In this document: positions 7,068-63,770 of the stretch, piece after piece | Layout of the letters: each line of letters begins with the position of its first letter | Position numbering within the stretch: position 1 is the first letter of the stretch | Assembly: GCA_030220185.1 (NCBI GenBank) | Contig: JASPKZ010003421.1 | Span: forward strand, 821,501-885,500 | Direction of reading: 5' to 3' | From: Diploptera punctata | Taxonomy: Eukaryota; Arthropoda; Insecta; Blattodea; Blaberidae | DNA: 64,000 bases | Translations under genes and position numbers: made by a program | The notes under the pieces: model-generated | Told to the model about the DNA's origin: nothing | The model's input: only the letters and a program-made list of their open reading frames with translations | The model's database searches: none

Positions 7068-8044
7068 GAAGAGAAATCAAGAGTTAGTGCCTTCAAGGAG
7101 ATGGGCCTTTCCAATAGACAAATACCTACGAAATTGGGGCTTCGAGATGTGTCATTGATAATTTTGTCAAACTGGGCTCACAATATGAAAAAAAACGGGA
7201 AATATGGTCGGACAAGAAAATTGTCTGAGCGCACTAAACATGTCATTTTACGTAAAGCAAAAGGTAAGAATATGTTTTCTTCTCAAATCCAGGCTGATTT
7301 GAAGATTTGAAGTTGTCATTAACAGCCAGACGAGTAAGACAAATTCTGTCAGAAGAGAAGAACCTAAAATTCAAAAAACGTCTTGGTAAACTACCTCTGT
7401 ACAATGCACATAAGGAAGCTAGAATGACTTTTGCTGAAGAACACATGTCCTGGACCTCAGAATGGAATAAAGTAACGTTCAGTGATGAGAAGAAGTTTAA
7501 TCTGGACGGGCCTGATGGCCTTCAGTATTACTGGAACGACCTCCGTACTGAAGAGCAAGTTAGAATGAGTAGAAACTTCGGTGGTGGAGGCGTTATGATT
7601 TTGGCAGCATTCTGCTTTAAAGGAAGATCAAAAATAGCATGGATACGCACCAAGATGAATTCTGAGTCCTACACTGAGGAGCTTCTGGAGTCCTAATTGA
7701 TACGAATGTATGAGGAATTTGGCGAAGATCTAATTTTTCAGCCAGATAATGCTTCCATTCACGTGTCTGCTGAATCACAGGAGTGGTTCAGGAAGAAAGA
7801 AATATCACTTTTGACGTGGCCAGTCAGAAGTCCTGATTTGAACCCGATTGAGAACTTATGGGGGGTCCTGGCAAGGCGTGTGTATCGCACTGGACGGCAG
7901 TTTGGAACAGTGACTGAGCAGAAAAATATTATTCAGGAAAAGTGGGCTTCAATCTCAGTGGAAGAAATAAACACCCTCATCAAGTCAATGCCAAAGAGAA
8001 TCTTCCAAGTAATTAACAATAATGGAGGTTCAACTAAATTTTAG
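7068..8044 (+). pseudogene. Tc3-like transposase (DD34E), broken
   Basis: The order is as in nematode Tc3 transposase. An N-terminal helix-turn-helix region has MGLSNRQIPTKLG (7101 onward), then a basic linker has GRTRKLSERTKHVILRKA. The catalytic domain has SDEKKFNLDGPDG (first Asp), PDNASIHVS (second Asp) and SPDLNPIENLWG (Glu). Thirty-four residues separate the second Asp and the Glu. All three catalytic residues are kept. Two lesions break the ORF: a frameshift near 7305 between the DNA-binding and catalytic parts, and a TAA at 7694-7696 after EELLES. The family's role is cut-and-paste transposition in the nucleus. Confidence 0.85.
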
Positions 8045-15779: not shown

Positions 15780-16870
15780 TTTGATTGGTCGAGGATATTA
15801 AGATAATAAAAATTTTAGACGATGTCCCTATGCAGAAATATGGATTACTTTAAGACATATGGGAATCAAGACTGTAATAATTAAAGCTACACAAAATTTA
15901 TATGACAATTGCATATCTAAAATTAAAATTGGCAGTAAATGAATTGTCACATGGTTTTACGACAAATAAAGGTCTTCGTCAAGGTTCTTGTCTATCACTG
16001 ACTCTGTTTAAAATATATGTACATGAAATATTAAAGAATTGGAGGAGAAAATGTTCAAGCATGGGAATTCCCATTTCAAACAACAAAACTTTATACAACT
16101 TACATTTTGCAGATGATCAATTGTTAATTGCACACGATTATGAACATTTAGAATATATGGCTAGAAAATTAATAGAAGAATACGAAAAATGGGGATTAAT
16201 TTTGAACATGAAAAAAAAGTATTTATCAGTTGGTGAACCAGAACAAAATTTAATTTTGGAGACTGGAGAAACAATAAAATCTTAGAGTGAGATTACATAT
16301 TTAGGATTTAAATTAAATAAAAATGGGAGTTATGAAGAGGAAATAAGAAATAGAAAAAATAAAGGAAAATTTGTAATTGCTTGCCTCAATGGAATATTGT
16401 GGGATAAAAATATAAGTAATAAAAATAAAATGAATATATTTCATACAATTGTTAAAAGCATAATTACTTATGGAGCAGAACTTGGGTCATTAACAACAAA
16501 AACAAATAAGTATATTTTGGCAATGGAAATTGATTTTATATGAAGGGCAGCAAGAATTTCAAGAAGAGAAAAAATAGGAACTCAGTTATAAGGGAGAAAA
16601 TTAAGATTGAAGACACTATTTTAGATTATATTAAAACTCGGCAATTAAGATGGTAGAGACATGTCCAGTGAATAAAAGAGGATCGCCTACCATCTGTTTT
16701 GTAATGGAAACTTGAGGGAAGACGAGGAAGAGGAAGACCTAAAACCTCCTGGAAAGGGAATATATTTATACATGAAGGAGGAACATCTACAACCAGGAAA
16801 TTGGATGGACCGACAAAATTGGCAATTGGGAATCGGACGATGTCAAAGACGTTAGTCGACCGATGATCTA
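15780..16870 (+). mobile_element. LINE RT remnant, second family (GMGIPI type)
   Basis: The longest intact piece is 15902-16285: GLRQGSCLSLTLFKIYVHEI (fingers/palm), MGIPISNNKTLYNLHFADDQ with the FADD catalytic box, and LIEEYEKWGLILNMKKKYLS. After a stop at 16283-16285, EITYLGFKLNKNG, YGAELGSLTTKTNK and later decayed C-terminal pieces follow to the GRCQRR-like end near 16850. The palm Asp pair is kept, but several stops prevent function. The same LINE type appears on the minus strand at 25626-26270. Confidence 0.75.
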
Positions 16871-33043: not shown

Positions 33044-33799
33044 CTAGCTAATACGTGGCGTACACTGCTACGCCTAAATAAATGAAAATGTATGTGCTTT
33101 CATGTTTAGTTGAATAAGTAATAGAAAAATAATTATAAATTTATATTTGTAGATACCCCGTGCTGATTACCCGGCATTGCCCGGAAATCTACTTATCCCG
33201 ATCTTCTTGACATAAATGAACTGAAATACGAAAATTGATGTGCTTTATGTTTAAGTTAAATAAGTGAAAGTAAAAATTTATATCGTAATTATTTTTAGAT
33301 ACCCCGTGCTGTTTACCCGGCGTTGTCCGGGAATTTACTTATCTCTATCGTCTTCGCATAAATGGGCTAAAAGACAAAATTCGTTATTGTGAGTTATCCG
33401 TAAAATAATATTCGCCATGTGCTGCTATGCTTGCACAGGAATGTACGTCTCGATTTTCTTGCCATCAACGAAATACAAAAATGGTTATTGTGAGTTATCC
33501 GCAAGAGATAAACATATGCTGTCGTGGACTTTTTTGTAGAGGTTTTTAGATATTCAATTGTGTGTACATTAATTTTGTGTATTTGTTATGGTTTAGACAG
33601 CGTAAACCATTTAAGCGTCCAAAGAGCTGATTTTTTTTCACGTTTTCCACTATAAAAGGCGAATTTTAAGGGCGTAAGAGTATGTTCATCCTGGGAATCT
33701 TCTGAACATTTTGCAAAAAAACCCATCACAATCGGATGAACAGTATGGCCGCGCATAAAGTACGAACAAACAAACAAAGATTCATTTTTATATATTAGA
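33044..33799 (-). mobile_element. Non-autonomous Helitron, family H2
   Basis: On the minus strand the element starts TCTAATATATAAAAATGAAT and ends GTAGCAGTGTACGCCACG, ATTAG and CTAG. The 3' part can form the short hairpin typical of Helitrons, with stem GGCGT/ACGCC in consensus. It is followed by about 9 bases and CTAG (the CTRR rule). Flanks are A before TC and T after CTAG, the canonical A|T insertion. There are no TIRs, no target duplication and no Rep/helicase ORF. Other copies: 37416-38252, 38253-38860, 43469-43880 and 44005-44313. Confidence 0.75.
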
Positions 33800-34249: not shown

Positions 34250-34963
34250 AATAGAATATAATAATTTAGCCTGGTGGAGTTAAGGCCATGTGGCCTTCTC
34301 TTCCACTCACCAGGACAAACATATATTATATATAAATACAATAAATTACAATAATAGTCATACTAAACAATTAATTATCTGTCAAATTGAATAATAATGA
34401 AAATAATGTCTAATAATACAATACAATTAAATACAGTTAAAATTAAATTGATGATAGAATTAATACAGAAAGGAATAACAGCTCGAGTCTGCTACACATG
34501 AAAAGAAAAGAAAGAAAAAAATACAAAGAAAGTAATAAACTACAATGAATTAATCTATTGCTTATTATACAAGGCATTAGCTAAATATATTAACAGATGT
34601 TAAAACTATTTTTATGAAATAATGAAAAAAAAACAAATTATTAATTTTTAAAAAGTAATATTAGTGAGTTGTTTCTGTTAGTAATTTTATTTTCAATTTG
34701 TTTCTGAAAGATGGTAAAGTTTGACAGTCTCTGCACATAAGATGGAAGGGAATTCCATCTTCTAACAAGAGAAATTGTAAATGATTTCGAATAATAGGTA
34801 GTATGATGATCTTGAAGAAGATTTCAGGGCTGTAGGCCGTGGTCTTTTGAGGCTTGAAGTTCCCCGACATTTCGCCCGGAAATCTTCAAGATCATAATAT
34901 TTTCGGAATTTGGTATCTGTATTATTCTTAAGCTTTAGGACAAAAATATTGTAACTTACCAAC
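34250..34963 (-). mobile_element. CR1-like LINE 3' part
   Basis: The minus strand ends with the shared family 3' terminus (CCTGGTGAGTGGAAGAGAAG, CCACATGGCC, TTAACTCCACCAGGC). Upstream is the decayed C-terminus of the ORF, including LLLEDGIPFHLMCRDCQTLP and SFRNKLKIKLL, parallel to the RSWNLLPQDIRGCRTLGTFK region at 46774-47283. It is interrupted or bounded at 34963 by the tRNA-like array. Confidence 0.65.
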
Positions 34964-34994
34964 ATTCTTTATAATATTTGAAGAGAAAAATTCT

Positions 34995-35068
34995 CGCCTA
35001 GACCGGGACTCGAACCCGGGACCCTTGGCTTTCCGGGCCAAGTGCTCTACCAACTGAGCTACCGAGGC
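34995..35068 (-). tRNA. tRNA-like gene, array copy 1
   Basis: It folds as a class I tRNA with acceptor GCCTCGG/TCTAGGC, D arm GCTC-AGTTGGTA-GAGC, TpsiC arm CCGGG-TTCGAGT-CCCGG, box A TAGCTCAGTTGG and box B GGTTCGAGTCC. The body looks like eukaryotic tRNA-Lys. The anticodon arm is abnormal: TTGGC/GCCAA closes a CCGGAAA loop, giving GGA with C instead of the universal U33, and one extra base precedes the stem. GGA would mean serine, but eukaryotic tRNA-Ser has a long variable arm that is absent here. Function is uncertain, and a tRNA-derived pseudogene is likely. Confidence 0.6.
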
Positions 35069-35295
35069 GAGTCACGATCTAGACGCAAATTTTTCTCTTA
35101 TGTACGTTGTAATTCCCTTGCGCCAAATGCTTGAAACCATAGCTTCTATCTTGCAAATGGCGGCTTCTTAGTTAAGAAGACATATATTGGGAATTTAACA
35201 CTACTTTATAGCCAGTAGGGCTTCTATTGACGATTTTATTATTAATTTAACACTTCTCATTGAAGGATAAATTATATTTGAAGAGAAAAAATTCT

Positions 35296-35369
35296 CGCCT
35301 AGACCGGGACTCGAACCCGGGACCCTTGGCTTTCCGGGCCAAGTGCTCTACCAACTGAGCTACCGAGGC
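35296..35369 (-). tRNA. tRNA-like gene, array copy 2
   Basis: Identical to copy 1 as far as I can read, 301 bases downstream of it, with the same anomalous anticodon loop. Confidence 0.6.
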
Positions 35370-35595
35370 GAGTCACGATCTAGACGCAAATTTTTCTCTT
35401 ATGTACGTTGTAATTCCCTTGCGCCAAATGCTTGAAACCATAGCTTCTATCTTGCAAATGGCGGCTTCTTAGTTAAGAAGACATATATTGGGAATTTAAC
35501 ACTACTTTATAGCCAGTAGGGCTTCTATTGACGATTTTATTATTAATTTAACACTTCTCATTGAAGGATAAATTATATTTGAAGAGAAAAATTCT

Positions 35596-35669
35596 CGCCT
35601 AGACCGGGACTCGAACCCGGGACCCTTGGCTTTCCGGGCCAAGTGCTCTACCAACTGAGCTACCGAGGC
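35596..35669 (-). tRNA. tRNA-like gene, array copy 3
   Basis: Identical copy, 300 bases from copy 2. It is the last minus-strand unit before the inversion junction. Confidence 0.6.
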
Positions 35670-35895
35670 GAGTCACGATCTAGACGCAAATTTTTCTCTT
35701 ATGTACGTTGTAATTCCCTTGCGCCAAATGCTTGAAACCATAGCTTCTATCTTGCAAATGGCGGCTTCTTAGTTAAGAAGACATATATTGGGAATTTAAC
35801 ACTACTTTATAGCCAGTAGGGCTATGGTTTCAAGCATTTGGCGCAAGGGAATTACAACGTACATAAGAGAAAAATTTGCGTCTAGATCGTGACTC

Positions 35896-35969
35896 GCCTC
35901 GGTAGCTCAGTTGGTAGAGCACTTGGCCCGGAAAGCCAAGGGTCCCGGGTTCGAGTCCCGGTCTAGGCG
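35896..35969 (+). tRNA. tRNA-like gene, array copy 4
   Basis: First plus-strand unit after the junction. Same sequence as the minus-strand copies; its upstream flank is cut at GCTATGGTTTC by the inversion. Confidence 0.6.
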
Positions 35970-36195
35970 AGAATTTTTCTCTTCAAATATAATTTATCCT
36001 TCAATGAGAAGTGTTAAATTAATAATAAAATCGTCAATAGAAGCCCTACTGGCTATAAAGTAGTGTTAAATTCCCAATATATGTCTTCTTAACTAAGAAG
36101 CCGCCATTTGCAAGATAGAAGCTATGGTTTCAAGCATTTGGCGCAAGGGAATTACAACGTACATAAGAGAAAAATTTGCGTCTAGATCGTGACTC

Positions 36196-36269
36196 GCCTC
36201 GGTAGCTCAGTTGGTAGAGCACTTGGCCCGGAAAGCCAAGGGTCCCGGGTTCGAGTCCCGGTCTAGGCG
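36196..36269 (+). tRNA. tRNA-like gene, array copy 5
   Basis: Identical copy 300 bases after copy 4. Its downstream spacer carries the 6-base duplication near 36306. Confidence 0.6.
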
Positions 36270-36501
36270 AGAATTTTTCTCTTCAAATATAATTTATCCT
36301 TCAATGACAATGAGAAGTGTTAAATTAATAATAAAATCGTCAATAGAAGCCCTACTGGCTATAAAGTAGTGTTAAATTCCCAATATATGTCTTCTTAACT
36401 AAGAAGCCGCCATTTGCAAGATAGAAGCTATGGTTTCAAGCATTTGGCGCAAGGGAATTACAACGTACATAAGAGAAAAATTTGCGTCTAGATCGTGACT
36501 C

Positions 36502-36575
36502 GCCTCGGTAGCTCAGTTGGTAGAGCACTTGGCCCGGAAAGCCAAGGGTCCCGGGTTCGAGTCCCGGTCTAGGCG
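36502..36575 (+). tRNA. tRNA-like gene, array copy 6
   Basis: Identical copy 306 bases after copy 5, the longer spacing being due to the extra TGACAA. Confidence 0.6.
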
Positions 36576-36801
36576 AGAATTTTTCTCTTCAAATATAATT
36601 TATCCTTCAATGAGAAGTGTTAAATTAATAATAAAATCGTCAATAGAAGCCCTACTGGCTATAAAGTAGTGTTAAATTCCCAATATATGTCTTCTTAACT
36701 AAGAAGCCGCCATTTGCAAGATAGAAGCTATGGTTTCAAGCATTTGGCGCAAGGGAATTACAACGTACATAAGAGAAAAATTTGCGTCTAGATCGTGACT
36801 C

Positions 36802-36875
36802 GCCTCGGTAGCTCAGTTGGTAGAGCACTTGGCCCGGAAAGCCAAGGGTCCCGGGTTCGAGTCCCGGTCTAGGCG
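36802..36875 (+). tRNA. tRNA-like gene, array copy 7
   Basis: Last unit. Its 3' flank (TTTTTCTCTTCAAATAT) runs directly to the right-hand direct repeat. A T-run just downstream could serve as an RNA polymerase III terminator, as in the other units. Confidence 0.6.
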
Positions 36876-36911
36876 AGAATTTTTCTCTTCAAATATAAAT
36901 TCTTTATAATA

Positions 36912-37415
36912 CTTCATTTCTACTTGGCTGATCATTGGTTACCATCTCATAATTATTTTGTGAGATCACTCTGTAGCTTATTAAAATGGAATATTGTAAT
37001 TCATTGCTGTTTCCATAATATTTGTCATTGAGGCTTGAAAATGCAACTTTATATATGAGTTATATTTCATTTAATGCCTATATTCTAAGGATAAAAATGT
37101 GACTTTATATATGAGATATTTTGCATTTTAATTCTTATATTCTGACGTTAAAAATGTAACTTTATATAGGAGTTATTTTACATTTAATCCGTATATTCTG
37201 AAGTTACTATATCTATAGTAGTATATTATACCATGTTATTATGGTAAGCCCTTAGATTATATAGTTCGAAATTTTAATTAGCGTATTTCACAGCAGTAAG
37301 AGAGATCACTAGACACTGCTGTATTTTTTAAAATTCTAATATGAATGTGAGGTCAGCAGCTGGCTGGTAGACGAAGGACTATCTAAAGTCTATGTAGGAG
37401 GAAATAAATAAATTA
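36912..37415. repeat. Short internal repeats in AT-rich sequence
   Basis: Three imperfect copies of a ~60-base unit run from about 37020 to 37205 (AAAATGCAACTTTATATATG, AAAATGTGACTTTATATATG, AAAATGTAACTTTATATAGG). There is no gene. Confidence 0.6.
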
Positions 37416-38252
37416 CTAGATAATACCCGGCGTGCGCTGATACGCCTAAATAAATTAAAATTAATGTGCTTTTATGTTTAATTGAATAAGTAAAAGCAAA
37501 AATAATTATAAATTTATATTTTTTAGATACTCCATGCTGATTACCCTGCCTTGCCCGGAAATCTACTTATCCCGATCTTCTTGACATAAATGAGCTGAAA
37601 TACAAAAATTGTGTTTTATGTTTAGTTAAATACGTAGAAGGAAAAAATTATATCCTAATTATTTTTAGATACTCCGTGCTGTTTGCCCCGCGTTGTCTGG
37701 AAATATACTCATCCAGATCGTGGCATAAATGAGCTGAAAGACGAAAATGAATGTAGTTCTTATGATAAGTTGAATAAGTAAAATAAAAAAATAAATATAA
37801 ATGTATAGCGTAATTATTTTAGGATTTCCCATGCTGATTACCCGGTGTTGCCCGGGAATCTACTTATCTCGATCTTCTTGGTATCAATGAAAGACAAAAA
37901 TTGTTATTGTGAGTTATCCGTAAAAGATAAATATATGCAGTCGCGGATGTTTACTAGATCTTTTTGAGATATTCAATTCTGTGTACATTAATTTTGTGTA
38001 TTTGATATGCTTTAGGCAGCGTAAGTCATTTAAGCGTCCAAAGAGCTACTTTTTTTTCGCGTTTTCCACTACAAAGGGCGATTCTTAATGGTGTAAGAGT
38101 TGAGTATCACAACTCTCTTACAGTCTATGTACATCCCGGGAATCTGCAGAACATTTTGCAAAAAGCCTCATCACAACCGGATGAACTGTATGGCCGCGCA
38201 TAAAGTGCAAACAAACAAACAAACAAACAAACATTCATTTTTATATATTAGA
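37416..38252 (-). mobile_element. Non-autonomous Helitron H2, tandem copy 1
   Basis: Same family as 33044-33799. It begins at CTAG (37416), with the hairpin region GGCGTGCGCTGATACGCC, and ends at TATATATTAGA (38252), after an AAAC tetranucleotide run. The internal text (ACATTTTGCAAAAAGCCTCA, ATGGCCGCGCATAAAGTG) matches other copies. Confidence 0.75.
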
Positions 38253-40034: not shown

Positions 40035-41120
40035 CTTATCTCCCGTTGGAGGATCCCGATATTTTTCAAGTTTTTCCTTCGGGAGTCGGGGAAAATGTTG
40101 TGGGACGTTTTCTCCTCTTCTCCCACTGGAGGATCCCGATATACTTCAGGTTTTTCCCTTGGGAGTCGGGGAAAATGTTGTGGGGCGTTATCTCTTCTTC
40201 TCCCACAGGAGGATCCCGATATTCTTCAGATTTTTCCCTTGGGAGTCGGGGAAAATATTGTGGGACGTTTTCTCCTCTTCTCCCACTGGAGGATCCCGAT
40301 ATTCACGTTTTTCCCTCGGGAGTCGGGCAAAATATTGTGGGACGTTTTCTCCTCTTCTCCCACTGGAGGATCCCGATATTCTTCAGGTTTTTCCCTCGGG
40401 AGACGGGGAAAATGTTGTGGGACGTTTTGTCCTTTTCTCCCACTGGAGGATACAGATATACAACAGATTTTTCCCTCGGGAGTCGGAGAAAATGTTGTGG
40501 GACGTTTTCTCCTCTTGTCCCATTGGAGGATCCCGATATTCTTCAGGTTGTTCCCTCGGGAGTCGGGGAAAATGTAGTGGGACGTTTTCTCTTCTTCTCC
40601 CACTGGCGGATCCCGATATTCTTCAGATTATTCCCTCGCGGGTCGGGGAATATATTCTGGGACGTTTTCTCCTCTTGTCCCACTGGAGGATCCCGATATT
40701 CTTCAGGGTTTTCCCTCGGGAGTCGGGGAAAATGTTGTGGGACGTTTTCTCCTCTTCTTCCACTGTAGCATCCCGATATTCTTCAGGGATTTCCCTCGGG
40801 AGTCGGGGAAAATGTTGTGGGACGTTTTCTCCTCTTCTTCCACTGTAGCATCCCGATATTCTTCAGGTTTTTCCCTTGGGAGCCAGGGAAAATGTTGTGG
40901 GACATTTTCTCCTCTTCTCCCACTGGAAGATCCCGATATTCTTCATGCTTTTCTCTGGGGAGACGAGGAAAAATTTGTGGGTTGTTTTCTCTTCTTTTCT
41001 CGCTGGAGGTTCCTATATTCTTCAAACTGTTTCCTTGAGAGTCGAGGAAAATATTGTGAGATATTTTTGTCTTTTCTTCTATTTTCAAGTTGGTCTCTCG
41101 GCAATCCATTTTCTGTTATA
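40035..41120 (+). repeat. 80-bp minisatellite, ~13 units
   Basis: The unit contains GGGAGTCGGGGAAAATGTTG, TGGGACGTTTTCTCCTCTTC and TCCCACTGGAGGATCCCGAT, then ATTCTTCAGGTTTTTCCCTC. Unit starts at 40081, 40161, 40241 and onward show a period of 80, with one 77-base unit from 40241. Homogeneity is high in the middle and decays to the right after about 41000. Because 80 is not a multiple of three and the unit has no stop in any plus frame, all three forward frames read as long ORFs (191-240 codons). These are artefacts. Each unit has a TTTTTCCC...GGGGAAAA inverted repeat. Confidence 0.95.
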
Positions 41121-41239: not shown

Positions 41240-41965
41240 ATTTTATCGGACTTTACGCTTCATATCTCAATTATAATTGTTGCCTCGGGAATCAGGAGGA
41301 TAGTAACACAATCCAAATGTTTCATTTTACTACGCATTGCTATTTTTCTGAATTAACTGAATTTCCTTTTGAATATATTCTCTAGATATCTCCTGAACTC
41401 TTTGTACTGTCATGTGTGTTGCATTTATAGCGACATTTTTGGTCAAATATTGATTTATGTTTTTTTTTAATTCAATGTCTCCTTTTTAGTTTCTCGCTGT
41501 AAGAAAACATATTTTGCCTTGTTGATGATGTTCACGTTTTAATGTAGCTGATTGGAATTTCATTTTTTTATTGTCCACAGGCTGAAATTAGTTTGTATAT
41601 TGCATTAATTCACGCCCACACTCCGTACATGAAGTAAATAGACATTACTTACTCTTTTTCTCAGTTATTGTATTAAAGTATTTTTAACTTATAGCTGCCG
41701 ATTTCGTCCATTTAATTCATCTAGACTTTTTCTTCATTCCTGTTTCTCTAGTTGATAATTTTCACTTTTACGTAACTAACTGTAATGTTTTATTTTATTG
41801 TCCACAGTATGTTTATTGTAAGATTTTATACTCTCGATGCATGTTTCTCTATGCTCAGTTATTATAATATTAACTAATTAAAACCTGTAGAATATGTAAA
41901 TTTAATTCCTTTTGATTTAATTTACTTACACAGAATTTAGAGAGTATTTATAACTGATAGAATTT
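41240..41965. other. AT-rich sequence without a recognised gene
   Basis: Nothing recognised. Confidence 0.4.
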
Positions 41966-42192
41966 AAAATTAATATAAAATTAAGGAATATTCACCTGAA
42001 AGGTCCGTCTCCTCAACTTAATTAATCATTTAACTGTAGCGCTTTCGGGGCTTGTCCCATCATCGGCAGGATTCAAAACTTTTGATTCCTGCCGATGATG
42101 GGACAAGTCCCGAAAGCGCTACAGTTAAATGATTAATTAAGTTGAGGAGACGGACCTTTCAGGTGAATATTCCATAATTTTATATTAATTTT
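41966..42192. repeat. Near-perfect 227-bp palindrome
   Basis: Arms of about 113 bases, 41966-42078 and 42080-42192, pair around 42079 with only a handful of mismatches. Each arm carries CCGATGATGGGACAAGTCCC followed by GAAAGCGCTACAG. The core is of the CTGANGA-hairpin-GAAA type seen at Penelope-like ends elsewhere here, but with C at the second position. It could be two inverted terminal pieces of a Penelope-like element. A strong cruciform or hairpin is expected. Confidence 0.85.
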
Positions 42193-42489
42193 GAATAATA
42201 CCTCAACGGAACACATCATGAATCTTATAAAAGTTGATGATAGAATTTATATTTAATTTAAGATTCAGTTTCGTAGCAACTGTCTGACAATAAGTTTCGT
42301 ATAAAATTAACAGTTCTATTGGGATCAGAATACAATTGTTTGTAATATTGTAACTTAGGAACAAAAAATTATATCAATAAAATATTTCACGTGTCAAATA
42401 ACAGTTCTATTCTCAACAATCCAGGAAGAATGCAAGAGGGGTATAAGTCCTCATACGCCCTCTTGTCACGAAATTTATAATGGAAAAGC
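42193..42489. other. Unclassified AT-rich sequence
   Basis: No supported feature. Confidence 0.3.
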
Positions 42490-43468: not shown

Positions 43469-43880
43469 TACTGGTTAATATCCGACGTGCGTTGCTACAC
43501 CTAATAAAATGAAATGTGTTTTTATGTTTAGTTGAAAAAGTGAAAAAGAAAATAATTATACATTTATATCGTATTTATTTTTAGATACCCCGTGCTTATT
43601 ACCCGGCATTGCCGGGAATCTAATTTTCCCGATTTCTTGGCGTAAGTGTGCTGAAAGATAAAAATGGTTATTGAGAGATATCCGTAAAAGATAGATAAGG
43701 TATATGCTGCTGCGGACTTTTTTTGTAGACTTTTCTGGTATGTTCAATTCTGTGTACGTTAATTTGGTGTATGTTATGGTTTAGAGAGCGTAAGCCATTT
43801 AACAGTCCACAAAGTCCCGAAAAACATTTTTTCTGTACAAAGGGTGAAGGGGTTTACAACTCTCTTATAGACTATAACTT
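43469..43880 (-). mobile_element. Helitron H2 fragment
   Basis: It begins CTGGTTAATATCCGACGTGC (CTAG mutated to CTGG) and continues with GTGCTTATTACCCGGCATTG and the AGTCCC..ACAAAGGGTGAAGGGG internal region. The 5' end (minus strand) is missing. Confidence 0.6.
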
Positions 43881-43970
43881 TCCAGGGAAACTCCTGAACT
43901 AATTAGGGCCTATATTATATTTAGTCTGATCATCGTACCTCAATAGTAATGTTGATTTGTTCTTGAACAT

Positions 43971-43999
43971 GTTTCAAAACAATTCTGTTTTATCGTCAG
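43971..43999 (-). other. CTGACGA-hairpin-GAAAC motif
   Basis: The minus strand reads CTGACGA-T-AAAAC-AGAATT-GTTTT-GAAAC, then ATGTTCAAGAACAAAT and ATTGAGGTA. The same continuation follows the Penelope-like ORF at 63.3 kb, so this is a stub of that element's 3' end. Confidence 0.6.
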
Positions 44000-44004
44000 C
44001 TTGT

Positions 44005-44313
44005 CCAGTCTGGACTTTTTGAGATATTCAATTCTGTGTACATTAATTTGGTGTTTTGTTATGGTTTAGGCAGCATAAGCCATTTAAGCATCAAAAAAGG
44101 GACTTTATTTCACGTTTTTCGCTACAAAGGATGATTTTTATGGCTGAAGGGGTTGAGTATTACAACTCCGTTATATCCTATGTTCATCCCGGGAATCTCC
44201 TGAACATTTTGCAAAAAACCTGTTCAAAATCGGATCAACGGTATGGCCGCGCATAGAATACGAACAAACAAACAAACAAACAAACAAAGAAACAACCATT
44301 TTTATATATTAGA
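44005..44313 (-). mobile_element. Helitron H2 fragment with intact 5' end
   Basis: Shares GAGATATTCAATTCTGTGTA, the ACATTTTGCAAAAAACC and GTATGGCCGCGCATA internal blocks, the AAACAAAC run and TATATATTAGA at 44303-44313 followed by T. The CTAG side is missing. Confidence 0.65.
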
Positions 44314-62224: not shown

Positions 62225-63240
62225 CACATTTTAATAACCAGTATTGTAGTTTAACAATCTTACATAATGCAGGAATACCCAAGCATTTAATTCAAGCGAT
62301 TCAAAGCATGTATCATAACACACGAATTCGAATAAAAAATAAATCAAATCAGCAAATCAGATAGACTAATATCCCAAGGTGTAAAACAAGGCTGTCCACT
62401 TTCCCCTCTTCTATTTAATTTATATATGAATGAAATCATAAAATTATGGCAAAACCAATCACAATCACACTTTATGATTGATGGTCGACCCCTCAACACA
62501 TTAATGTATGCAGATGATCAAGTAATATTGGCTACTTCTGAAGATCACCTACAAAGAGCAGTACATAGATTGTCAAATATAACCCAAGATTATAATTTAC
62601 AAATTTCGGTGAGTAAGACAAAAACTATGGCGTTTCAAGGAAAAATACCGATACGAACTAAAATTGTTATTAACAACAATATAATAGAACAAGTTAATAA
62701 CTTTACTTATCTTGGCTGCAATCTTTTCTACGGCACATGTAAAGACATAGACATAAAATTGGTCAAATTTCAAAAACTTATAGGAACAATAAAAAACATT
62801 CTTTTCCGAAAAGTACGCCCAGATACAATTCTAAAATTTTATAAAACAGTGGCTCTTCCAACTCTACTTTATGGTTCTGAAACCTGGACTCTTACTACAG
62901 GTAAATTAAATAGGATAGTAGCTGCAGAAATGAAGTTATTAAGATCTTTAGTGGGTTATACGCTTTATGATCACATACGTAATGAAGATATCCGCAAAGC
63001 TCTCAACACACCAGCAATAACTGAAATCATTCAAAAATATCAAAATAATTGGCATGAACACCTTCTTAGAATGCCAAACAATAGACTACCTCTGCAGCTA
63101 CTGAACTACAAACCCACAGAGCGAAGAGACCCAGGAAGACCTAAGAGGAGATGGAGTGATCAATTTCTTTCCTGAAGCGGAACAGGCCAACGGTCTAAAT
63201 TCATGCGTGCCATTGATGATGATTATGACAATTGTCACTT
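62225..63240 (+). mobile_element. LINE 3' half (RT palm to C-terminus)
   Basis: It starts with IPKHLIQAIQSMYHNTRIRI and ends after the ORF with CATTGATGATGATTATGAC, a short (GAT)n-like tail. The element is 5'-truncated, lacking endonuclease and RT fingers. It abuts the fold-back element's right end by about 30 bases. Confidence 0.75.
62285..63175 (+). pseudogene. LINE reverse transcriptase, YADD box present
   Basis: After a frameshift near 62370, the 249-codon frame gives the palm (QGCPLSPLLFNLYMNEIIKL in the adjoining text), the catalytic LMYADDQVILAT and the thumb SVSKTKTMAFQGK and NNFTYLGCNLFY. It continues with LYGSETWTLTTGKLNRIVAA, EMKLLRSLVGYTLYDHIRNE and the C-terminal YKPTERRDPGRPKRRW. 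The two catalytic Asp residues are intact, but the N-terminal part is lost. This is the best-preserved RT in the window. RTE-like by motif. Confidence 0.8.
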
Positions 63241-63770
63241 TACAATTGTCCTATTTAAATATTCTTTATATTATTAAGAGTCTGTGTATCTTACCTCAAT
63301 ATTATTTATTTCTGATGTATTATTTGTTCTTGAACATGTTTCGATTGGGTATCAATCATCTTCAGCATCTTGCCCAGGCTGGTTGGATTTATGTTGTAAA
63401 CCCTGGATGTCGATGTCAGCTCCCTCCTGTGGTTGGCCAAAGAACCTCCAAATGACCGTTCCGTCGGTATTTCGAAATTCATTATTGTTCTTGTTCTTCT
63501 GAATAAAGAGTTTTTTTCCCAAATAGGCAGCTCTTTTGTATTTTCTAACTGTTTTAATAATTTAGTGTCCGAATCTATATTATGTTTTTCAGACCAAACA
63601 TGAGCAGGAACTGTAGATTTTTCTATTTCCCCAGTTTTAATATTTCTTATGGTTCTAATTTGTAGGTTTCTTTTTTTCCCCCTATATATATCTTTTTACA
63701 GCCCGTATATTCAATTTGATATATTCTTGATTTTTTATTTTTATCAGTTTTAATTACAACTATTTAAATT
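63200..63770 (-). mobile_element. Penelope-like element, GIY-YIG 3' part, copy 2
   Basis: The minus strand encodes YQIEYTGCKKIYIGGKKRNL, then IEKSTVPAHVWSEKHNIDSD, ENTKELPIWEKNSLFRRTRT and RVYNINPTSLGKMLK. That is a GIY-YIG endonuclease domain in the cysteine-containing style of Penelope-like elements, where the YIG and the following K/R block are clear. The ORF runs almost into the CTGAAGA-hairpin-GAAAC motif at 63338-63365. The RT domain lies beyond or is lost. Confidence 0.75.
63338..63365 (-). other. CTGAAGA-hairpin-GAAAC motif at a Penelope 3' end
   Basis: The minus strand reads CTGAAGA-T-GATTG-ATACC-CAATC-GAAAC, then ATGTTCAAGAACAAAT and ATTGAGGTA. It directly follows (partly overlaps) the end of the Penelope-like ORF, which anchors the motif to this element type. 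Confidence 0.7.

Follow-up and report, generated by a model that had tools for sequence, protein, structure and literature searches.

The window analysed here is a 64,000-nt stretch of the genome of the cockroach Diploptera punctata (GenBank assembly GCA_030220185.1, contig JASPKZ010003421.1, positions 821,501 to 885,500, forward strand), and coordinates given without a locus name are positions within it. Between 34964 and 36911 it carries seven ~300-bp tRNA-like units, of which the first three run on the minus strand and the remaining four on the plus strand, with their 3′ sides facing outward. A first-pass annotation, made from the sequence alone, had described seven near-identical units in this arrangement, a 3-base GCT microhomology at the orientation switch and a perfect 13-bp flanking direct repeat, all of which we could confirm. 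The features of the block are the following, with u denoting positions in the reference unit.

34964..34976, no strand: target-site duplication, left copy, ATTCTTTATAATA, 13 bp
34977..35823, minus strand: minus arm of ~2.8 tandem units, outer A-type end TTTGAAGAG without tail, inner end at unit position 64
34995..35068, minus strand: tRNA-like core 1 (Rfam tRNA, 54.2 bits)
35296..35369, minus strand: tRNA-like core 2
35596..35669, minus strand: tRNA-like core 3
35821..35823, no strand: head-to-head junction, 3-base microhomology GCT
35821..36898, plus strand: plus arm of ~3.6 tandem units, outer A-type end CTCTTCAAATATAA at 36885–36898, inner end at unit position 143
35865..35983, plus strand: 119-nt hairpin formed by a 32-nt imperfect inverted repeat that brackets the tRNA-like core (−61 kcal/mol, z = −7.2)
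35896..35969, plus strand: tRNA-like core 4
35979..36278, plus strand: reference 300-bp unit (u1–u300), with the A end at u1–14, the tail segment at u15–56, the core start at u218 and a T5 run at u296–300
35993..36034, plus strand: 42-nt tail segment (u15–u56), internal in the window
36196..36269, plus strand: tRNA-like core 5
36502..36575, plus strand: tRNA-like core 6
36802..36875, plus strand: tRNA-like core 7
36899..36911, no strand: target-site duplication, right copy, ATTCTTTATAATA, 13 bp

All seven cores, each recognized by ARAGORN, by the Rfam tRNA model and by alignment of the units, are 74 nt long and identical to each other. The units measure 300 or 301 bp, with one of 306 bp owing to a 6-bp duplication; their alignment contains no substitutions, and the differences amount to this duplication and one T-run difference. 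The core matches the Rfam tRNA model over its whole length, the Pol III A and B boxes being covered within that match rather than scored apart, and ARAGORN calls it tRNA-Ser(GGA). Serine tRNAs, however, have a long variable arm and a base other than C before the anticodon. Because the window core has no long variable arm and carries a C immediately before its anticodon, these general rules indicate that the cores are probably tRNA-like sequences and not working serine tRNAs. The fold of the 119-nt hairpin was equalled by none of 200 shuffled sequences. The longest stop-to-stop frame inside the array spans 58 aa, so that the element contains no open reading frame (ORF) for a reverse transcriptase or a GIY-YIG endonuclease, and a spurious ORF of the unit had no protein homologue in our search. 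An Rfam scan of positions 34900–36960 at E ≤ 1 returned no match but tRNA, and the hammerhead motif CTGANGA is absent from both strands of the unit.

The 13-bp repeat ATTCTTTATAATA occurs at the two array edges and at no other place in the window. Matches close to the ends reached at most 10 in 20,000 Markov flank pairs, and when ~20,000 pairs of real window positions were drawn at random, a single match (21 nt) was longer than 12. The array is unlikely to be a fold-back read artefact, because the 500-bp flanks on its two sides do not match in inverted orientation (score 24, where null comparisons averaged 22 and peaked at 36) and because a second contig (C6311, our locus L009) bears the same flank and the same arms as far as the contig end, which lies inside the array. 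A search of the assembly for an empty allele at the window locus found none. Elsewhere in the window, an 80-bp minisatellite of 12.8 copies, open in several frames, occupies 40039–41058, and a Tc1-like transposase broken by a stop lies at 7298–8044 (HTH_Tnp_Tc3_2 below the curated cut-off, DDE_3 above it).

The unit belongs to a family dispersed over the genome. The window's own assembly spans 3.12 Gb in 10,165 contigs and contains 34,524 matches (17,242 + 17,282) to a 55-nt core pattern allowing at most 3 mismatches, against 0 for the reversed control pattern. Among the first 100 places listed, which are exact matches ordered by position, neighbouring cores within 1 kb were oriented ++ in 16 cases, −− in 12, −+ in 12 and +− in 1 (−+ versus +−, p 0.0034), and the spacing of tandem cores was mostly 300–305, which makes the tandem head-to-head layout a genome-wide habit. 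Exact core and spacer patterns gave 0 matches in separate viral and genome contig collections, and four stretches of core sequence had no occurrence in the open-licence papers searched. The search for the 300-bp unit itself, with copies, orientation and flanks, which the first-pass annotation had recommended, gave at least 188 matches (40 of 931 candidates scored) and likewise revealed dispersed copies that are mostly head-to-head and flanked by direct repeats. From the unit matches listed we took 36 other clusters, re-read 12 of them with wider flanks and, after dropping L009, which is the window locus on another contig, analysed 39 arrays including that of the window. By BLAST, 26 of the 39 have two or more arms, arranged head-to-head, and 13 are one-armed, although one of the latter (L028) shows a 17-nt second arm by eye; arms hold up to 12.6 copies of the unit. 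These figures support the earlier proposal of a mobile, palindromic, multi-copy tRNA-like element. Since the arrays were found by their similarity to the window unit, the sample leans to young copies. Units or parts of units only 70–73% like the reference are present at L064:2989–3284, L057:2815–2981 and L057:1700–1830, and the family thus seems to have old members as well.

Direct repeats of 10–15 bp, lying outside simple sequence and each of a different sequence, were found at the ends of 29 of the 39 arrays. Their lengths are 12 bp (13 arrays), 13 bp (10), 14 bp (2), 15 bp (2), 11 bp (1) and 10 bp (1); random pairs searched alike reached 10 bp in 39 of 1000 cases and 12 bp in 27 of 1000. 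The other clusters are therefore not the repeat-free arrays bound to one genomic context that had been named in advance as speaking against a staggered-cut insertion, and such an insertion is supported. The end analysis left out 10 arrays: two (L014 and L051) whose direct repeat lies inside TA repeats, one (L042) for which the automatic match was internal and the repeat read by eye is ATATAACCTCATG, and seven (L037, L045b, L048b, L052, L053, L055 and L056) with no direct repeat of at least 10 bp at their ends.

The outer ends occupy two points of the unit, called A and B, where B equals A plus the 42-nt tail. With all arrays oriented so that the A end (CTCTTCAAATAT...) points rightward, the B end reads ...CGTC in the unit sense, at about u56. 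Among the 29 scored arrays, 22 are A/B, the tail segment forming the outer B end of one arm, 6 are A-only and one-armed, and 1, the window copy, is a tail-less A/A form. In the six A-only copies (L015, L030, L035, L038, L045a and L050), the left end lies at a varying unit position through 5′ truncation. One array scored as A/B (L049) has an extra short inverted piece beyond its A side, and at L048 (3000–3649; array L048a) an A-run separates the A end from the duplication and may be left over from a polyadenylated template. Two further one-armed arrays with an A end (L048b and L052) have no direct repeat of at least 10 bp. Such repeats thus accompany 6 of 8 A-only and 0 of 3 B-only arrays (L053, L055 and L056), which hints that an A end can stand alone and a B end cannot, a lead only, as the Fisher p is 0.06 on 8 versus 3 arrays. 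The targets are biased: at the A-side boundary, A is found at −3 in 24, A at −2 in 23, C at −1 in 15 and A at +1 in 23 of the 29 arrays, and at the other boundary (right flank), T is the second base outward in 26 of 29.

At the inner side, the 26 head-to-head junctions (L009 set aside) comprise 17 with an overlap of at least 1 nt, 8 with 1–9 inserted bases and 1 blunt joint, and the junction differs among most copies. Three pairs of loci depart from this pattern. L010 and L042 have the same inner junction, L040 and L044 have the same junction together with the same 6-nt insertion beside it, and the junctions of L019 and L025 differ by one T; within each pair the target duplications differ. Because these junctions are common to loci with different insertion sites, some palindromes may have been copied whole. 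The offset from one inner end to the other is evenly distributed (KS p 0.24), with 4 of 26 within 6 nt, which argues against a general snap-back origin. In addition, 12 of 52 inner ends cluster at u294–299, where the hairpin has its foot (1 expected by chance, p 4e-10), as would be expected if the polymerase halts there.

Sites without the insertion were sought by removing each array together with one duplication and searching the 26 joined sites among the array stretches read. Six of them had a spanning match of at least 85%, of which one (L036) was discounted as its own overlapping flank, leaving five insertion sites with uninterrupted paralogous counterparts:

L034 site: counterpart at L048 (96%), with a one-base gap in the L034 match ranked best by a second script
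L044 site: counterpart at window 44016–44214 (89%), no gap near the site
L047 site: counterpart at L063 (90%), within a Penelope-like endonuclease gene, no gap near the site
L050 site: counterpart at L057 (93%), no gap near the site
L054 site: counterparts at L017 (93%) and L064, no gap near the site

Copies of a 142–146-bp repeat lie on both sides of the window array (33084–33364, 37463–37792 and 43493–44286), and the counterpart of the L044 site is in the last of these intervals.

Variants among units bear on the template. Across 125 full units from 33 loci (some with more than one array), divergence is 1.06% within loci and 3.78% between them, and the 25 loci with at least two full units contain 165 singleton variant sites as against 22 that recur in several units. 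At L044, the same unit types follow each other from the outer end inward in both arms (first three ranks, five sites), and this matching order argues, at one locus with the remaining loci undecisive, that both arms were copied from the 3′ end of a linear multi-unit template. In the rank comparison of 12 loci, the same order is clear in L044 only; the other 11 are flat, opposite or uninformative, L045 and L047 pointing opposite to L044, and the values of L010 and L036 are inflated by badly aligned partial units. At L016, the unit type changes within one arm, which fits template switching, and at L010 one variant is present in two adjacent units, likely reflecting a change in copy number inside arms after insertion. 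The idea that the two arms of L040 derive from two different RNAs was withdrawn once partial units were included. End-to-end jumping between linear monomers was also set aside, as the unit joints look regular and the outer A ends vary.

The statement that such an element fits no known class proved too strong, because published passages and our survey of this genome both point to the architecture of Penelope-like elements. In Adineta, Penelope elements are described with inverted pLTRs, most often head to head, with 8–10-bp duplications in the examples given and, optionally, with an extra tail of 31 bp at one of the inverted pLTRs, and the corresponding passage leaves undecided whether their template is sense or antisense (PMC3846280). 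The tRNA-like arrays share with them the head-to-head inverted repeats and the target duplication, the one-sided tail (carried by the 22 A/B arrays, not by the window copy), the partial tandems and the 5′ truncation. They differ in having no long ORF, a tRNA-like core and 300-bp tandem units, and in duplications that are mostly 12–13 bp, as against the 8–10 bp of the Adineta examples (PMC3846280).

In the genome of D. punctata, we found a 405-aa ORF with a GIY-YIG domain (Pfam), relatives of which carry reverse transcriptase together with GIY-YIG, so a reverse transcriptase part may be predicted for this neighbouring Penelope-like element too. A first look for GIY-YIG sequences in the genome gave 45,022 candidates, of which 150 were scored; Penelope-like coding fragments are present in several of the array stretches read, and the window itself contains an endonuclease fragment at 63453–63748 (minus strand), 49–54% identical to the L045 ORF. 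Within 240,315 bases read (overlaps between stretches counted), a filter retained 42 other palindromes, 18 of which have a direct repeat of at least 9 near their ends. In 14 of these 18, one side carries 28–50 extra nt and the other fewer than 10, compared with 22 of 162 for chance repeats; 3 of the 14 encode Penelope endonuclease and several others match one another, while one (L017) is doubtful, its repeat overlapping the tail motif. The window holds a palindrome with this Penelope-type anatomy at 41962–42196; its direct repeat, TGATAGAATTTA, measures 12 bp, and one of its sides has an extra 41 nt. The target boundaries of the Penelope-type palindromes (A at −3 in 11, A at −2 in 10 and T in 12 of 14) show a bias similar to that of the tRNA-like family, with the T one base further out. 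A tail motif common to the unit and to Penelope-like elements was not significant: with a purpose-built profile, the unit tail scored 12.3 bits against the sampled Penelope tails, a value reached by 80 of 600 shuffled sequences and by 52 of 600 random 60-mers. The Penelope tails sampled in this genome thus revealed no partner that carries the ends of the unit, and because the unit tail is unlike them, the likeness demonstrated is one of architecture, to which membership by descent would be a further assumption. Among titles and abstract openings of the open-licence literature, weak evidence of absence as these are, we found no paper linking Penelope with tRNA-carrying elements.

Other known systems match less completely. 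Like tRNA-derived SINEs (e.g. Blattella Sbg1–Sbg9), the family has a Pol III-type tRNA-like core, is non-autonomous and reaches a high copy number; compared with the SINEs as characterized in the relevant passages, however, its core is 3′-sided (starting at u218) and not a 5′ head, its copies are tandem and palindromic, and the arrays end shortly past the core or after the mostly one-sided tail, not in poly(A) or a microsatellite (PMC9191728). Metazoan retrozymes are portrayed in the pertinent section of PMC7229834 as carrying type I hammerhead ribozymes, and minimal hammerheads are mentioned there in Penelope-like elements, whereas our unit has a tRNA-like hairpin and no hammerhead was found in it. 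Helenus TRIMs are likewise non-autonomous retroelements with tRNA-like sequence in a terminal part that is repeated, but the animal members are described with LTRs, a primer-binding site and 4-bp duplications (PMC10886601), in contrast to the palindromic structure and 10–15-bp duplications (13 bp in the window) found here. Finally, unlike a foldback or MITE DNA transposon, the arrays have no conserved centre, most of the 26 junctions differing, and their ends are asymmetric (A/B in 22 of 29).

Taken together, we consider it reasonably probable (about 70%) that the window block is a recent single insertion of a dispersed, non-autonomous retroelement made of ~300-nt tandem tRNA-like units and mobilised by Penelope-like machinery, that is, a reverse transcriptase with a GIY-YIG endonuclease. 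That the window holds one insertion of a dispersed family rather than a local amplification follows from the presence of copies genome-wide, each with its own direct repeats. It is well supported that the arrays insert in the Penelope manner; that Penelope machinery mobilises them we infer, and since the window array has no ORF for reverse transcriptase and GIY-YIG, it can at most be a non-autonomous relative or a client of Penelope-like elements. A staggered cut duplicates mostly 12–13 bp of target. During such an insertion, a multi-unit RNA template would be primed at A on the target, and the reverse transcriptase would then take a second, antisense template, unless the other target strand primes at B. 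The two reverse-transcription products would join at short microhomologies to give the palindrome, and the 119-nt RNA hairpin may promote stopping or switching of the enzyme. A more specific scenario, which we put forward tentatively and with some doubt, is that a tRNA-carrying tandem RNA parasitises Penelope: sense RNA would be primed at A, a switch to antisense RNA would run to its 5′ end at B, most insertions would be born palindromic, the hairpin would stand in the hammerhead's place, and palindromic copies, such as those of L040 and L044, would be re-transcribed and recopied.

Several other origins have to be weighed against the Penelope-like one. Target duplications, 5′ truncation and junction microhomology are also typical when an ordinary LINE mobilises a SINE, here with twin priming at an unusually high frequency: the first strand would start at A, and the other strand of the target would find a second priming position on that RNA and yield the inverted arm; reverse transcriptase fragments do lie in the window (RVT_1 at 15881–16282 and 62336–63172). 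Twin priming, however, does not predict that the second arm ends at B whatever the target, as it does in 22 of the 23 two-armed arrays scored, and it should take upstream units, whereas both arms of L044 start from the same terminal unit types. A one-sided tail of similar length also marks this genome's Penelope-type palindromes, and we regard the LINE route as unlikely. Another possible template is an RNA circle of ~300 nt that is copied repeatedly, a scheme put forward for retrozymes; A and B would then be separate priming sites on it. This would account for the regular unit joints and for the many arrays with no or only private unit differences (the excess of singleton over shared sites), but the order of units in the two arms of L044 needs a multi-unit linear template and no ribozyme was found in the unit, so that this route appears improbable.

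The simpler course offered by the first-pass annotation, a single inserted tRNA-derived element that later multiplied on the spot by fold-back replication, to which we add unequal exchange, is compatible with the near-identity of the window units, and a snap-back with a 76-nt loop can be fitted to the GCT junction. It fails to explain similar palindromes across the genome, a direct repeat outside both arms, inner junctions that mostly differ while the outer ends are fixed, and inner-end offsets that are evenly spread and not short, the 4 of 26 within 6 nt notwithstanding; we therefore deem it very improbable. Palindromic tandem-repeat arms with terminal inverted ends and a direct repeat could equally belong to a foldback or Mutator-type DNA transposon whose long terminal inverted repeats of tandem units are moved by a transposase, and a Mutator/Foldback family, Tm1, has been reported (PMC3169594). 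Yet the inner junctions differ in most copies, the ends are mostly asymmetric, six one-armed truncated copies have target duplications, and the duplication length varies from 10 to 15 bp, which makes a transposase origin scarcely credible.

The origin of the inverted, tailed copies of Penelope is an open question, and a short, non-coding and abundant family makes that question countable, because its ends, junctions and unit variants can be read in many copies. Mobilisation of the arrays by Penelope-like machinery would suggest that tRNA-like repeats are able to spread on a reverse transcriptase other than the LINE and LTR types, and that such insertions are the source of this cockroach genome's tens of thousands of tRNA-like sequences.
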